A stretch of 48,249 nt of DNA from Anaerolineales bacterium (GTDB lineage Bacteria; Chloroflexota; Anaerolineae; Anaerolineales; Villigracilaceae), in NCBI GenBank assembly GCA_014860745.1, contig JACZJC010000029.1, positions 1 to 48,249 on the forward strand. Direction: 5' to 3'. The notes under the pieces are model-generated. The model worked only from the letters and a program-made list of their open reading frames with translations. It was not told the origin of the DNA and searched no databases. Shown here piece after piece: positions 203 through 22,390 of the stretch. Made by a program: the position numbers and the translations under genes. The first letter of the stretch is position 1; every line of letters begins with the position of its first letter.

Positions 203-1444
203 ATGACACTAAAATCTTTTATAGAAGTTTCCCCTGAATCCGATTTCCCGATACAAAACCTGCCATTTGGAATTTTTTCGACGCAGGCGAATCCTGCTCC
301 AAGGGTTGGGACAAGAATCGGCGATTGGGTGGTTGACCTATCCTTCCTGGATGGTGAAAAAAAATTCGGCAGGGAGTATGGTTTTTTTGCTGATTCAACT
401 TTGAATCGCTTCATGTCCGCAGGGCGGGGGGCGTGGCGGGAGATCCGTCAGCTATTGACCGATTTCTTAACGAGCGGCAACTTTCCCGTTAAGAAAGAAG
501 CGTTCATTCCGTTCAATGAAGCGCACATGCATCTCCCCGTCGCGATTGGCGATTACACTGATTTTTATGCATCGCGCGAACATGCCACGAATGTCGGCAT
601 CATGTTTCGCGGCAAAGAAAATGCGCTCATGCCCAATTGGCTGCATTTGCCGGTCGGTTATCATGGCCGCGCAAGTTCTGTCGTCGTTTCCGGTACGGAT
701 GTGATTCGTCCGTGCGGGCAGGTGGCGCCGAACGGTCCGCCGCCCGAATTCGTCCCATCGCGTTCGCTCGATTTCGAATTGGAGATGGGATTCTTCGTCG
801 GCAAGGGGAATGAACTGGGCGAACCGATATCAATTGATAACGCGCGTGAACATATTTTTGGCATGGTACTTCTCAACGACTGGAGTGCGCGTGACATTCA
901 GGCATGGGAATATCAGCCGCTGGGACCATTCCTTGCGAAAAATTTTGCGAGCTCGGTCTCGCCCTGGGTGGTGACGATGGATGCGCTGGAACCCTTCCGC
1001 GTGCAGGGACCGAAACAAGAGCCTGCGCCTCTGCCCTACCTCAAAACTGATTCAGCAAATGGATATGACATCCGCCTTGAAGTGACTCTGCAATCTGAAA
1101 AGATGGATGCGCCGCAAACCATCAGCCGTTCGAATATGAAGTATATGTATTGGAGCATAGTCCAGCAGTTGGCTCATCATACTGTCACGGGTTGTAACAT
1201 GCGGACCGGCGACTTGTGCGGCACAGGCACGCTGAGCGGGCCAACCGAAGACAGTTACGGCTCCATGCTTGAGTTGACCTGGCGCGGCGAGAAGCCGATT
1301 CAATTGCCCAACGGTGAGACTCGCAGGTTTTTGCAGAATGGCGACACGGTTGTGATGAAGGGCTATTGCCAGGGCGACGGCTATCGGGTGGGCTTTGGCG
1401 ATGTGACTGGGAAGATATTGCCCGCAAAGGAGGAGGTTCGATGA
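203..1444 (+). CDS. fahA: fumarylacetoacetase
   Basis: Hydrolyses fumarylacetoacetate to fumarate and acetoacetate, the last step of tyrosine/homogentisate catabolism in the cytoplasm. The 413-residue length is normal for full-length FAH with its N-terminal SH3-like domain (about residues 20-115) and C-terminal FAH fold. The expected metal and catalytic residues can be read: D120 and H127 in [14 protein letters not shown]192 and E194 in LDFELEMG, and D226 in LLNDWSARD. The ATG at 203 has only a weak GGGA upstream, but it gives the normal N-terminus. The stop overlaps the start of the next gene by four bases (ATGA), so the two are translationally coupled. No other tyrosine-degradation gene is visible in the window. 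Confidence 0.95.
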
Positions 1445-2070
1445 AAATAATTATTTTTGGCGCGTCCGGTGGGCTGGGATTAAAAGTCATGGAATCGGCT
1501 CTGGACCTGGGGCATTTCATCACGGCTTTTGTGCGCAGCCCGGAAAAAGTTAAAATTCGGCATCCGAACCTGACGGTGTTTCAACGCGATGTAATGGACT
1601 CAGCCGCTGTAGCAAAAGCGATAGCGGGACAGGACGCGGTCATCAGCACACTGGGACCTTCGCGCCCGCCGGTTCCCCACATGATGGAACTCGCTGCGAA
1701 AAACATCGTGGCAGGGATGCGGGAGCATGGCGTGCAGCGGCTGATCTCGACCACAGGCGCGGGCGTGCGCCAACCCGAGGACCAGCCGAAGTTTGTCGAT
1801 AAATTTTTTGGCGTTTTGCTCAATCTTCTGGCAAAGGAGGTCGTAGCAGATTCTGCCAAGAATGTGAAGGTGCTCCAGGTTTCCGATTTGGACTGGACGG
1901 TTGTGCGTTTTCCACGTTTGACCGATGGCGAGCACATGGGAAAATATCGGGTTGGATATGTGGGCAGGGATTCAAGCACCCAGTTCTCCCGAGCCGATGC
2001 CGCGGATTTTATCCTCAAGGAATTATCGGAAAAGAAATGGGTAAAGAAATTACCTCTCGTGAGTTATTGA
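1441..2070 (+). CDS. NAD(P)-binding SDR-like oxidoreductase (NmrA/YwnB type)
   Basis: A small atypical short-chain dehydrogenase of 209 residues with an N-terminal Rossmann motif GASGGLG at residues 7-13. The family (NAD(P)H-binding, PF13460-like) includes flavin/biliverdin reductases, NmrA-like redox sensors and epimerase relatives, so the substrate cannot be stated. The start was chosen at 1441 because AAAGGAGG lies just upstream and it overlaps the fahA stop as ATGA. The open frame extends further upstream inside fahA, but that part is not expected to be translated. It is the last gene before a perfect palindromic terminator. Confidence 0.85.
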
Positions 2071-2085
2071 TTTCGGATGAAAAAT

Positions 2086-2119
2086 AAAGAGAGCCGCGCA
2101 GATCTGCGCGGCTCTCTTT
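2086..2119. terminator. perfect palindromic bidirectional terminator
   Basis: A 34-base perfect palindrome, with arms built on AAAGAGAGCCGCGCA and GATC at the centre. It lies between the convergent reductase gene and the GlsB-type gene and has A/T tracts on both sides, so it can stop transcription from both strands. Confidence 0.85.
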
Positions 2120-2138
2120 ATTTCCTTTAATTCGGATT

Positions 2139-2387
2139 TTATCGGCGGATCAAGCCTACAATGAAAAGCAATACCACTGCTCCGATGACAGCGACGAGAA
2201 AACTCCACAGGTCGAAGCCGGTGATCCCCTCGTACCCAAGGAAGTTCATGATCGCTCCGCCGAGGAAAGCCCCGATGATGCCGACCACGATGTTGGCGAT
2301 GGCTCCCATCTGCTTGTTCTTCTTCATGATGATACTGGCGATCCAGCCTGCCAGCGCGCCGAAAATGATCCATGCGAGAATATTCAT
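2139..2387 (-). CDS. GlsB/YeaQ/YmgE family stress-response membrane protein
   Basis: An 82-residue protein with three hydrophobic segments (about residues 1-20, 27-47 and 58-80) and glycine-rich helices (WIIFGALAGWIAS, IVVGIIGAFLGGAIM) typical of the transglycosylase-associated protein family (PF04226). Members are small inner-membrane proteins induced by stress; their biochemical role is unknown. The start at 2387 was preferred over an in-frame ATG four codons upstream because GGAGG sits correctly for the inner ATG. It is transcribed towards the palindromic terminator at 2086-2119 and lies downstream of purA, with only 38 bases between them. Confidence 0.85.
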   Translation of the reverse strand: MNILAWIIFGALAGWIASIIMKKNKQMGAIANIVVGIIGAFLGGAIMNFLGYEGITGFDLWSFLVAVIGAVVLLFIVGLIRR

Positions 2388-2425
2388 AACAACCTCCATA
2401 AACGGTTTAGATTTTTTTTATTTTA

Positions 2426-3805
<1,380 letters not shown>

Positions 3806-3943
3806 TCAGCCCTGAACTGAAACCTGCTCCTGTTTCGACGGATTGGACTCAGCCCAAAGCGTGGACCAGGCCTGTTTTGGAAAGAACAGCCATCGGTTAA
3901 GTGCGAGGCGCTCTATTTATCCGAAAGACTCACTGTCAAGCAT

Positions 3944-20085: not shown

Positions 20086-20529
20086 TTATTTTACCCGCTT
20101 CAACTTCAAACAGGTGCACGGATACCCATTATTATCGCCTGCAAAACGGCTGATCTCCTGAAAGCCTTCGCTCTCGTACAGGGCGATGGCTTTTTTATTT
20201 CCATCGAGCACAATCGTCCATGCGCCTTCGCCGATCTCGCGGATGCCGATGCGGAGCAGTTCGCGCCCGATGCCTTTGCCATAATGGTCTGGGTCAACGT
20301 AAAGCCATGCAAGGTAATCCTCGTCCACGCCGACAAAGCCAACCACTTTTTCTTCTTCACAAGCCACAATTTTTTTACTAAGCTTTAGGTCTTCTACTTC
20401 CTTGTCCTGTTCGATGGGAATGAATCCGCGAGGGTCACAGGAGCCGATCAACTCATCTGGCCGCGCACGGTCATGGATTTGGCAAATGGCTTGCCAATCT
20501 TTGTCTTCGTAGTTTCGGTATATGATCAT
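20086..20529 (-). CDS. GNAT family N-acetyltransferase
   Basis: 147 residues with the GNAT fold: the acetyl-CoA motif A is DPDHYGKGIGRELL, followed by EGAWTIVLDGNKKAIALYESEGF, the usual beta5-alpha4 region. Substrate unknown. It starts 12 bases after the ABC-F stop with AGGAG in between, so it shares the ABC-F leader and may belong to the same stress or antibiotic response. It could equally be a general amino-group acetylase. Confidence 0.85.
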   Translation of the reverse strand: MIIYRNYEDKDWQAICQIHDRARPDELIGSCDPRGFIPIEQDKEVEDLKLSKKIVACEEEKVVGFVGVDEDYLAWLYVDPDHYGKGIGRELLRIGIREIGEGAWTIVLDGNKKAIALYESEGFQEISRFAGDNNGYPCTCLKLKRVK

Positions 20530-20541
20530 GTTTGAAGTCTC

Positions 20542-22167
20542 CTATTTATAAATTTTTTCATCACGCGCCAGCCATACATCAGATGCAAAGCGCTCGATGA
20601 AATTTCTGTCATGCACAGCAGCGAGAAATGTCCCGTTGAAGTTTTCCAGCGCTTCCTCGAAACGCTCACGGGAGGGGATGTCGAGGTGGTTGATGGGTTC
20701 ATCCAAAATCAAGAAAGTACATCCTTGCGCAACCAGCAGAGCCAGTTGCAGGCGGGCGCGTTCGCCGTAGGAGAGCTCACCTGCAGAGCGCAGCGCAGCA
20801 TCGCCCTTGAAGAGGAAATAGTGCAGAAAGTTGCGCGTCTCGGTTTCATTGATGGGTAAGGCGTCTTGAATGGTTTGAATCGGATTCAAAGCAGGGTTGA
20901 GTAATTCCTGTTCCTGTGCCATGTAACCGAGTTTGGTTGCACCGCCCAGGCGGAATGACCCTGCCAGTGGGGGAATCTTGCCAACAATAGTTCGAATAAA
21001 GGATGTTTTGCCTGCTCCATTTGGACCTGTCAGCACGATTCGCTGTCTGGCACGGATGAACAAATTAATGTCTATTAGCAAAGGCTTGTCTTGCGCGTAG
21101 CCAATTGAGAGGGACTCGGTAACCAACACATTTTTCGATTGATGCTCAAGTTTACCGAAGTCCAATTTGAGCTTCCATGAATCGTGCGGTTTCTCGATTC
21201 TTTCATCGGTGAGGAGTTGCTCGATGCGGGCTTCGATGTGTTTTGCCCTTCCTGCCACGTTCTTGGTGGCGCGGTTGCCGAAAAAGCCCTTTGCAAATGT
21301 ATCGCCGCTATCGGCTTTGCCGCCTTTCTTCATGATGGTCAGGTTGCGGATGTGACTCGCTGCGCGGCGTAATTGAGCGATCTCGTCCTGCTGGCTTTGG
21401 TACGCCTGCGACTGATTATCGTATTCGAGCAGTTTCTGCCCGAGGTAGTCGCTGTAGTTGCCATCATAGGCGCGTAGGGTGTGAGATGCCGTGTCGAGAT
21501 CAAGAATGGTACTGACGGTGTTATCAAGAAATGTGCGGTCATGCGAGACGATTAGTACAGCGCCTTTAAAACGGATAATCCATTCTTCCAGCCATTCTAG
21601 CATTTCGATGTCGAGGTGATTGGTGGGTTCATCCAATAATAAAAGATGCGGGTCTTCGAGCAGGACTTTGGCAAGTTTCAGGCGCGTTTTCTGTCCGCCG
21701 CTGAGATGGGCGAGGGGCGTTTCTCCAGGAAAATGGGCAAGCCCTAAAGGGCCGAGGATAGAGGAATGAAGACTATTAGCGATGGACAGCTTATGCAGGG
21801 TGTTGTCGTATTTGTTTTGAAGGTCGGCATCGTTTGGATTTTGTGAAAGGGCAAGGGCGAGGGACTCAACTTCAAGAGCAGGGTCTGCCCGGGTGGATGG
21901 ATCAAGTCCGAGCGCGGAATGAAGCGTTTGTTCCGAGTCAGATTCCATGCCTTGGGAAAGATATCCTGTTCTTAAGTTTGGTCGCGTCGATACGACAGTG
22001 CCAGAATCGGGAGATTCGAGACCTGCAAGGATGCGCAAGAGCGTGGTCTTGCCGGAGCCGTTCGCGCCGATGAGGCCGATGCGTTCTCCTGCGCTGATAT
22101 TGAAATTGATGTTTTGTAAAACGGGCTGGATGCCGAAATTTTTCGAGAGGTTGTGAATACTAAGCAT
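20542..22167 (-). CDS. ABC-F family ATPase, possible ribosome protection protein
   Basis: 541 residues with two ATP-binding cassettes and no membrane domain. NBD1 has GANGSGKTT (34-42), LSGGQKTRLKLA and LDEPTNHLD. The basic linker of about 85 residues (SHIRNLTIMKKGGKADSGD and following) corresponds to the P-site tRNA interaction motif or antibiotic-resistance domain. NBD2 has GPNGAGKT, LSYGERARLQLA and a variant LDEPINHLD, with AAVHDRNF in place of VSHDR. ABC-F proteins bind the ribosomal E site and either displace antibiotics or rescue stalled ribosomes. The elaborate leader at 22173-22300 strongly suggests ribosome-controlled induction, which favours the resistance type. Drug class unknown. 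Confidence 0.9.
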   Translation of the reverse strand: MLSIHNLSKNFGIQPVLQNINFNISAGERIGLIGANGSGKTTLLRILAGLESPDSGTVVSTRPNLRTGYLSQGMESDSEQTLHSALGLDPSTRADPALEVESLALALSQNPNDADLQNKYDNTLHKLSIANSLHSSILGPLGLAHFPGETPLAHLSGGQKTRLKLAKVLLEDPHLLLLDEPTNHLDIEMLEWLEEWIIRFKGAVLIVSHDRTFLDNTVSTILDLDTASHTLRAYDGNYSDYLGQKLLEYDNQSQAYQSQQDEIAQLRRAASHIRNLTIMKKGGKADSGDTFAKGFFGNRATKNVAGRAKHIEARIEQLLTDERIEKPHDSWKLKLDFGKLEHQSKNVLVTESLSIGYAQDKPLLIDINLFIRARQRIVLTGPNGAGKTSFIRTIVGKIPPLAGSFRLGGATKLGYMAQEQELLNPALNPIQTIQDALPINETETRNFLHYFLFKGDAALRSAGELSYGERARLQLALLVAQGCTFLILDEPINHLDIPSRERFEEALENFNGTFLAAVHDRNFIERFASDVWLARDEKIYK

Positions 22168-22188
22168 ATAGACTCCTAAACTTTAAAT

Positions 22189-22213
22189 AAAAAAACCAAG
22201 GGCAAGCCCTCGG
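22189..22213 (-). terminator. premature terminator in the ABC-F leader
   Basis: Stem CCGAGGG (22207-22213), loop CTTG, arm CCCTTGG (22196-22202), then seven T residues. It lies between the leader peptide and the ABC-F start. Confidence 0.8.
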
Positions 22214-22249
22214 CTGAATCATCACAGCAGGGTTACCCGGAATGAAAGT

Positions 22250-22267
22250 TTAGAAAGTCTTCTCCAT
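22250..22267 (-). CDS. leader peptide MEKTF
   Basis: ATG GAG AAG ACT TTC TAA, preceded by a strong AAAAGGAG eight bases upstream. Its stop codon lies in the sequence that pairs with the ABC-F ribosome-binding site. It is too short to be a functional protein and is best read as a regulatory leader. Confidence 0.65.
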   Translation of the reverse strand: MEKTF

Positions 22268-22390
22268 GTCAGCGTCTCCTTTTCGACGGTCCGAATTGTA
22301 ACATAAAGGGGTAAACTTGGTGATTGTTTGCGCGTCCATATAGGGACGAAATCCCAAAGAAAAATGTTCCAATAAATTTACGAGGTGAAT

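Follow-up and report, generated by a model that had tools for sequence, protein, structure and literature searches.

The window examined here is the whole 48,249-nucleotide stretch of contig JACZJC010000029.1, from a member of the Anaerolineales (Chloroflexota, Villigracilaceae). On its minus strand lie a gene for an ABC-F protein of 541 aa (20542..22167) and, 12 bases after it, a gene for a GNAT acetyltransferase of 147 aa (20086..20529); the two probably form one operon. A divergent PIG-L gene is found on the far side of the leader region that precedes them. This region, also read on the minus strand, contains from 5′ to 3′ an extended -10 promoter element TGTTACAAT (22295..22303), recognized in the window sequence and by -10 scoring upstream of leaders, a ribosome site AAAGGAG (22282-22276) and a leader ORF of five codons, MEKTF-stop (ATGGAGAAGACTTTCTAA, 22250..22267), whose ATG occupies 22267-22265 and is followed by GAG AAG ACT TTC TAA ending at 22250. 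The end of this ORF is overlapped by AGACTT plus CTAAACTTT (22245..22260), the anti-SD strand of a pairing that we call helix 1. Then come element 2a, GGGTAA (22233..22238), and element 2b, CCCTGCTG (22225..22232), which are the outer and inner antiterminator strands; element 3, CAGCCGAGGG (22207..22216), the 5′ arm of an intrinsic terminator and also the antiterminator partner of 2b; the loop with element 4, CTTGCCCTTGG (22196..22206), the 3′ arm and also the antiterminator partner of 2a; the U tract of seven T (22189..22195); and AAAGTTTAGGAGTCT (22170..22184), the partner strand of helix 1, which holds the ABC-F ribosome site AGGAG (22177-22173). The terminator itself reads CCGAGGG (22213-22207), CTTG, CCCTTGG (22202-22196) and T7 (22195-22189). 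In helix 1, CTAAACTTT (22253-22245) is the exact complement of AAAGTTTAG (22184-22176), and the pairing is lengthened by GACTT with GAGTC.

An earlier note, made from the sequence alone, had pointed out the MEKTF leader with its ribosome site, the intrinsic terminator and the nine-base complement between leader stop and ABC-F ribosome site, and all of these are present as described. It had also proposed an antiterminator pairing of CCCTGCTG with CAGC-CG-AGGG: this inner half is correct, and the outer half, GGGTAA (22238-22233) with TTGCCC (22205-22200), had been overlooked. The window contains no Rfam match at gathering score. Folded alone, the leader of the window reaches -40.6 kcal/mol (z -1.97), with 5 of 200 shuffles equally good; this is modest evidence by itself, and the case rests on the relatives.

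Orthologues, their leaders and the genes behind them

Protein searches gave one clear orthologous group, with an orthologue in 56 of the 152 genomes of the family (E 1e-120). The close named kin are MAGs of Anaerolineales or Chloroflexi, one of them Ca. Villigracilaceae, and cultured Ornatilinea, Bellilinea, Anaerolinea, Leptolinea and Longilinea have an orthologue at ~50-53% identity. Among 62 regions upstream of ABC-F orthologues, 57 carry a leader ORF of 5-6 codons with an SD; these near leaders were picked by SD and position, pairing not being used. The five exceptions are L036, where the leader is ATGTAA, L064, where the contig end cuts the region, L065_2274, which is a second tandem copy, and L058 and L073, in which no 5-6-codon leader ORF with SD was seen. 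In L065 (G141, 573-3851) the tandem ABC-F copies have a leader before the first only, and in L036 (G165) the start-stop leader goes with an anti-SD pairing that is kept and an attenuator hairpin that is replaced, as judged by eye.

A wider set of 87 loci includes 30 distant leaders, selected partly for pairing. Upstream of 74 of these 87 leaders the best -10 score, counted as matches to the hexamer with one point added for TG, is 6 or 7, a value reached by 7% of shuffled stretches, and the element usually lies 33-38 nt ahead of the leader ATG. With an RNA model and a limit of E 1, the leader is detected once in each of 64 of the 152 family genomes; the two lowest-ranking matches are weak (E 0.17 and 0.53). 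The same search across the class gave 12 of 396 genomes, every one in the family of the window, and diverged leaders were recovered solely via the protein. By eye, repeat-like inserts separate terminator and ABC-F SD in L008, L013, L014, L033, L046, L054, L055 and L059, most of which retain an ACAGG-like sequence beside the gene.

Over the 87 loci, codon 2 of the leader has 0.12 bits at its third position vs 1.13 bits at the first, a degeneracy that resembles that of translated sequence, so that the leader ORF is predicted to be translated. The peptide MEKTF is found in 2 of 87 leaders, those of the window and of L070. Since 46 of 87 leaders begin by Start-T-D, the peptide may matter; Thr near the end of the nascent chain suits stalling by phenicols and oxazolidinones, which we take as a lead only. 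Among the distant orthologues, L185, L188 and L190 have a related leader of 20 codons, MTD.AI(N/D).(Q/K)G..WR.H(V/I)R(A/V)R, with R-x-R before the stop and then an apparent terminator. Its end resembles the macrolide-arrest motif +X+, and it may be a macrolide-type leader in the same ABC-F group. Other leaders have three codons (MTD, MTN, MID, MIQ in L158, L166, L171, L176, L186, L191 and L194), and their stop region pairs with the ABC-F SD region.

The ABC-F protein of the window passes the NF000355 model, ribosomal protection-like (415 bits vs a cut-off of 380), and stays below every cut-off of the named resistance subfamilies (310 vs 800 for TlrC/CarA/OleB/SrmB). Its structural model (pLDDT 81) has linker helices at 238-277 and 291-319 with a low-confidence tip, and its best fold matches are PoxtA and VmlR2, with EttA close behind; in a profile search of the PDB, YheS comes out on top. 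Neither sequence nor fold of the ABC-F draws a clear line here between resistance and housekeeping proteins. Behind the ABC-F gene, at least 11 of 57 loci have a GNAT gene like that of the window, as judged by its start sequence, and at least 14 of 57 have an AadA-like nucleotidyltransferase, as judged by N-terminal sequence. All four of these nucleotidyltransferases that were scanned match Pfam AadA_C and fall below the NCBIfam cut-offs for named enzymes; two of the four follow leaders without ABC-F behind. In some of the loci, the genes behind the leader thus resemble resistance genes, and the ABC-F gene is likely to be a ribosome-protection gene.

In some loci the ABC-F gene has decayed. 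By eye, L104 and L105 keep ABC-F remnants behind the leader, which in L105 has no ATG, and L107 has a recognizable leader and no ABC-F; in L069 the ABC-F is decayed or lost and the leader is still recognizable. In L106, L109 and L111, the last a weak match, the leader stands before an AadA-like gene, which in L111 is broken (by eye). Helix 1 is retained in L111 (AACCTGTAG with CTACAGGTT) and is not evident in L106 and L109. Downstream of the leader, L106 has at 2238-3782 a single ORF of 515 aa made of two AadA-like units in tandem.

Pairing at the ABC-F ribosome site

In the 57 near loci, the two strands of helix 1 from the same locus pair with a mean of -13.46 kcal/mol vs -9.85 (sd 0.33) for permuted strands, and 0 of 20,000 permutations did as well. 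Distant orthologues gave -13.44 vs -9.10 (z -8.0, 0 of 20,000), with a null that had the choice of leader built in and a candidate in 29 of 40 loci, 11 being without one. Between the window and relatives at ~80-82% protein identity, 7 of 9 helix-1 positions differ on both strands and the pairing is intact; this comparison covers few evolutionary events, because most of those relatives have one common helix. Against this evidence counts that seven or more contiguous helix-1 pairs form in 49 of 57 loci with their own strands and also in 48% of swapped pairs: helix 1 is partly exchangeable between loci because letters are shared.

The position of the anti-SD strand was measured in the 79 of 87 loci with at least six contiguous pairs, the other eight, including two with three-codon leaders, being omitted. 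Counted from the A of the leader ATG, the centre of helix 1 lies at 15.5 nt for leaders of three codons (n=5), 16.1 for five (n=46) and 17.2 for six (n=26), while relative to the stop it moves from +5.5 to +0.1 and -1.8, respectively. As the centre is near-constant from the AUG and shifts from the stop, the start codon seems to be the anchor of this strand. The two leaders of four codons have their centre at 21.8, and over all 79 loci the spread is 3.8 nt from the AUG vs 4.3 from the stop, not a large difference.

The earlier note held that a ribosome stalled on the leader would both open the ABC-F ribosome site and affect the terminator, and called for folding the RNA with and without an occupied leader. 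In such modelling the first effect appears in the window, where predicted accessibility of the ABC-F SD rises from 0.01 to 0.39 when a ribosome masks the leader start. The mean over 87 loci is 0.21 unmasked and 0.29, 0.32 and 0.34 with the mask at start, codon 3 and stop, a control mask giving 0.21; with the start mask, 37 of 87 loci gain more than 0.1 in accessibility and, counting against the effect, 16 lose. The second effect fared less well, as seen below.

Terminator and antiterminator

The two halves of the antiterminator were tested by the same permutation of strands between loci. Inner pairing 2b:3 has -9.84 vs -8.52 kcal/mol permuted (z -6.1) and outer pairing of 2a with loop+4 has -9.74 vs -9.09 (z -7.4), both with 0 of 20,000 permutations as good. 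These tests carry no tree model; judging from control pairs on the same loci (2a:3, z -1.7; 2b:4, z -0.4; 2a:2b, z 0.1; spacer:tail, z 1.0), relatedness by itself seems to contribute little. When 990 pairs of 10-nt windows were scanned without any assumed structure, the highest ranks (z -6.8 to -8.2) went to helix 1, 2b:3, 2a:4 and the terminator. Next, and belonging to none of these, comes a weaker signal that joins the leader SD with early ABC-F codons (z -4.6, 57 loci).

A hairpin followed by a U tract is present in all 57 near loci. In a MAFFT alignment of 37 of them, both antiterminator and terminator exceed every one of 500 shuffles in three measures: cells paired, cells with a change on each side, and the covariation score. 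Other counts from this alignment are less telling: shuffles were as high in 134 of 500 cases for pairs changed on both sides and 288 of 500 for pair types of the antiterminator, and in 443 of 500 for each of the two in the terminator. The fourth 2a:4 pair is broken in 8 of 37 sequences and the first 2b:3 pair in 13 of 37, partly because clades use shifted pairings. We dropped a triple change at columns 63, 108 and 121 as proof of a base common to terminator and antiterminator, since six sequences change at all three columns and five of these allow 2a pairing shifted by one base. Altogether, the covariation that the earlier note had asked for in orthologues is found: leader, masked SD, terminator and antiterminator are kept by compensatory change.

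Terminator and antiterminator are also of comparable stability, their difference ranging from -5.3 to +7.2 kcal/mol with a median of 0.3 over the 57 loci. In the 48 loci without long inserts the two energies correlate at 0.85; after swapping of the 5′ halves the mean is 0.46, and 0 of 2,000 swaps come as high, as expected of a switch kept near balance. Sequence comparison thus establishes the leader, helix 1, the terminator, the antiterminator and the balance of the last two.

How a ribosome could act on this pair of structures is less apparent. In 49 of 57 loci the antiterminator starts 33-35 nt from the A of the leader ATG, and in the window 29 nt from it; both distances are beyond reach of a ribosome at the leader start codon. 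The scan gave no strong pairing between leader and terminator, the strongest having z -3.6 and -3.4, with 5% of all pairs below -3.0. Two candidates for an anti-antiterminator were rejected, a small 2a:2b helix and a helix between the AACC spacer and the tail of the terminator, GGTT, neither of which covaries (z 0.1 and 1.0); element tests and scan together gave no covarying candidate, invariant pairs being such as would escape them. Masking of the nascent leader by a ribosome was likewise set aside as driver of the terminator, as equilibrium folding gave no consistent shift; the U tract was part of these folds and was free to pair with stretches rich in A. Every leader of 5-6 codons, whether near (57) or distant (20), comes with a terminator-like hairpin, and among the seven leaders of three codons, four are without one and three have only long AT-rich or loose ones. 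Hairpin presence follows leader length in this way, so the two may be linked, through ancestry or function.

Proposed mechanism and comparison with known systems

Since relatives keep the pairings with different letters, the RNA ahead of the ABC-F gene is very probably a real switch. We consider that the leader is probably a drug-inducible attenuator of a resistance operon, in which a ribosome held at the leader start or first codons frees the masked SD. Without drug, the ribosome would read the leader and leave quickly, the leader stop region would pair with the ABC-F SD region, and ABC-F translation would be blocked by helix 1; a fraction of transcripts would moreover end at the terminator, in competition with an antiterminator (2a:4 enclosing 2b:3) of nearly equal stability. 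A drug holding the ribosome at the leader start or first codons would bring its leading edge over the helix-1 strand (centre ~+16), so that the ABC-F SD would be freed. Drugs stopping ribosomes at or just after initiation would then be the inducers, the tunable terminator making a second layer. We infer that drugs induce the operon and that it serves resistance, and likewise the class of drug and any effect that the ribosome may have at the terminator.

The role of the ribosome at the terminator divides the explanations. The ribosome stalled on the leader might, as the earlier note proposed and as in vmlR, also shift the RNA from terminator to antiterminator. The covariation and balanced energies of these structures, the precedents of vmlR and cplR (PMC9226507, PMC10201436) and the association of the hairpin with leaders of 5-6 codons speak for such double control, and in the window a stop-codon ribosome would reach about the base of 2a, so that a ribosome passing normally could promote the terminator, and one stalled at the start codon the antiterminator. 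On the other hand, no anti-antiterminator covaries, the scan gave no strong leader-terminator pairing, the terminator shift in masked folds is inconsistent and the association with leader length may be shared ancestry; we hold double control to be conceivable, a little short of an even chance. We give the same weight to the opposite proposal, that the ribosome regulates by translational attenuation alone and that the terminator merely cuts transcription to a fixed fraction. It accounts for L186 and L191, which have helix 1 without a terminator-like hairpin, and for L036, where by eye the anti-SD pairing outlived the hairpin beside a start-stop leader; yet it would make useless an antiterminator that covaries and is tuned in energy.

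Two further explanations depart from the preferred drug-inducible attenuator altogether. The ABC-F could be a housekeeping translation factor, its leader sensing ribosome supply or the general state of translation rather than drugs, as the first rank of YheS in the profile search would fit, and ribosome assembly defects are reported to induce vmlR as well (PMC9226507). This we find improbable, given that the gene is patchy within the family, that decayed copies occur (by eye), that AadA-type genes follow ABC-F in the loci counted above and that the window protein passes the NF000355 cut-off. That the whole arrangement is chance complementarity next to an ordinary terminator, as the single-sequence fold, only mildly better than shuffles, would allow, is hardly credible in the face of the swap tests and the compensatory changes.

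Returning to the drug-inducible attenuator, we would tentatively go further, in a proposal that we rate below an even chance. The leader may be a sensor of initiation arrest without peptide dependence, in which the leading edge of an AUG-held ribosome is the switch and the anti-SD stays at ~+16 while leader length and peptide drift; terminator and antiterminator, tuned near-equal, would set transcription apart from the ribosome, and the device would control operons for multiple resistance in Anaerolineales, in which ABC-F is joined by AadA-type or GNAT genes, and could pass to the next gene after ABC-F loss. If true, drug-induced uORF control of ABC-F genes would reach the Chloroflexota, bacteria common in sludge, sediment and groundwater, and would suggest that they encounter ribosome drugs in their natural habitats. 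The almost constant spacing from the AUG would also offer a testable rule for drug sensing by leaders of 3-6 codons without fixed peptide.

These properties recall several known attenuators. In ermC and catA, a ribosome on the leader ORF frees a masked SD, and this requires specific arrest peptides encoded within longer leaders. The likeness lies in the leader ribosome that would free the SD, whereas the leaders described here mostly have 3-6 codons and a variable sequence. As in msrD, an ABC-F gene would stand under control of a drug-stalled leader and a terminator; msrD is reported to rely on macrolide-specific elongation arrest (PMC10314930, PMC9226507), and in our set a likeness to this is seen only in the 20-codon leaders, those of L185, L188 and L190, through their +X+ ending.

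The closest relatives in design are vmlR and cplR. In Bacillus subtilis, vmlR has a three-codon uORF, MIN, with a start-codon toeprint at +16, combines transcriptional and translational levels, and has a uORF whose sequence differs among species (MIN, MDN, MDK, MRK; PMC9226507). Our leaders share with it the very short uORF of varying sequence, the competition of terminator and antiterminator, a structure sequestering the SD, the downstream ABC-F gene and a helix-1 centre, ~+16, at the toeprint position. In vmlR (PMC9226507), an anti-antiterminator stem holds the uORF and a separate hairpin covers the SD, whereas here the leader stop region is the anti-SD, one long antiterminator hairpin is nested inside helix 1, covariation tests and scan found no anti-antiterminator, and the phylum differs. 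The uORF of cplR in Clostridioides is MRI, and transcriptional and translational attenuation act together there (PMC10201436); the same study shows for cplR and the Listeria lmo0919/vgaL leaders a short uORF with an anti-SD element, as we find, and predicts that the terminator hairpin of cplR itself sequesters the SD, whereas in our leaders the SD is not part of the terminator and has the leader stop region as its partner.

As vmlR and cplR combine both levels, this kind of switch is already known from Bacillota (Bacillus, Clostridioides), and the earlier note was not right to regard so short a leader as unusual merely for combining the two levels: vmlR does so with three codons, and cplR likewise has a very short leader (PMC9226507, PMC10201436). 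Among the matches listed in the literature, covered in part, none concerns such a leader in Chloroflexota or Anaerolineae. What sets these leaders apart from the known systems is the phylum, an anti-SD that lies in the leader stop region and whose helix encloses a single long antiterminator, the balance in energy between terminator and antiterminator, and a spacing that is anchored at the AUG over different leader lengths.
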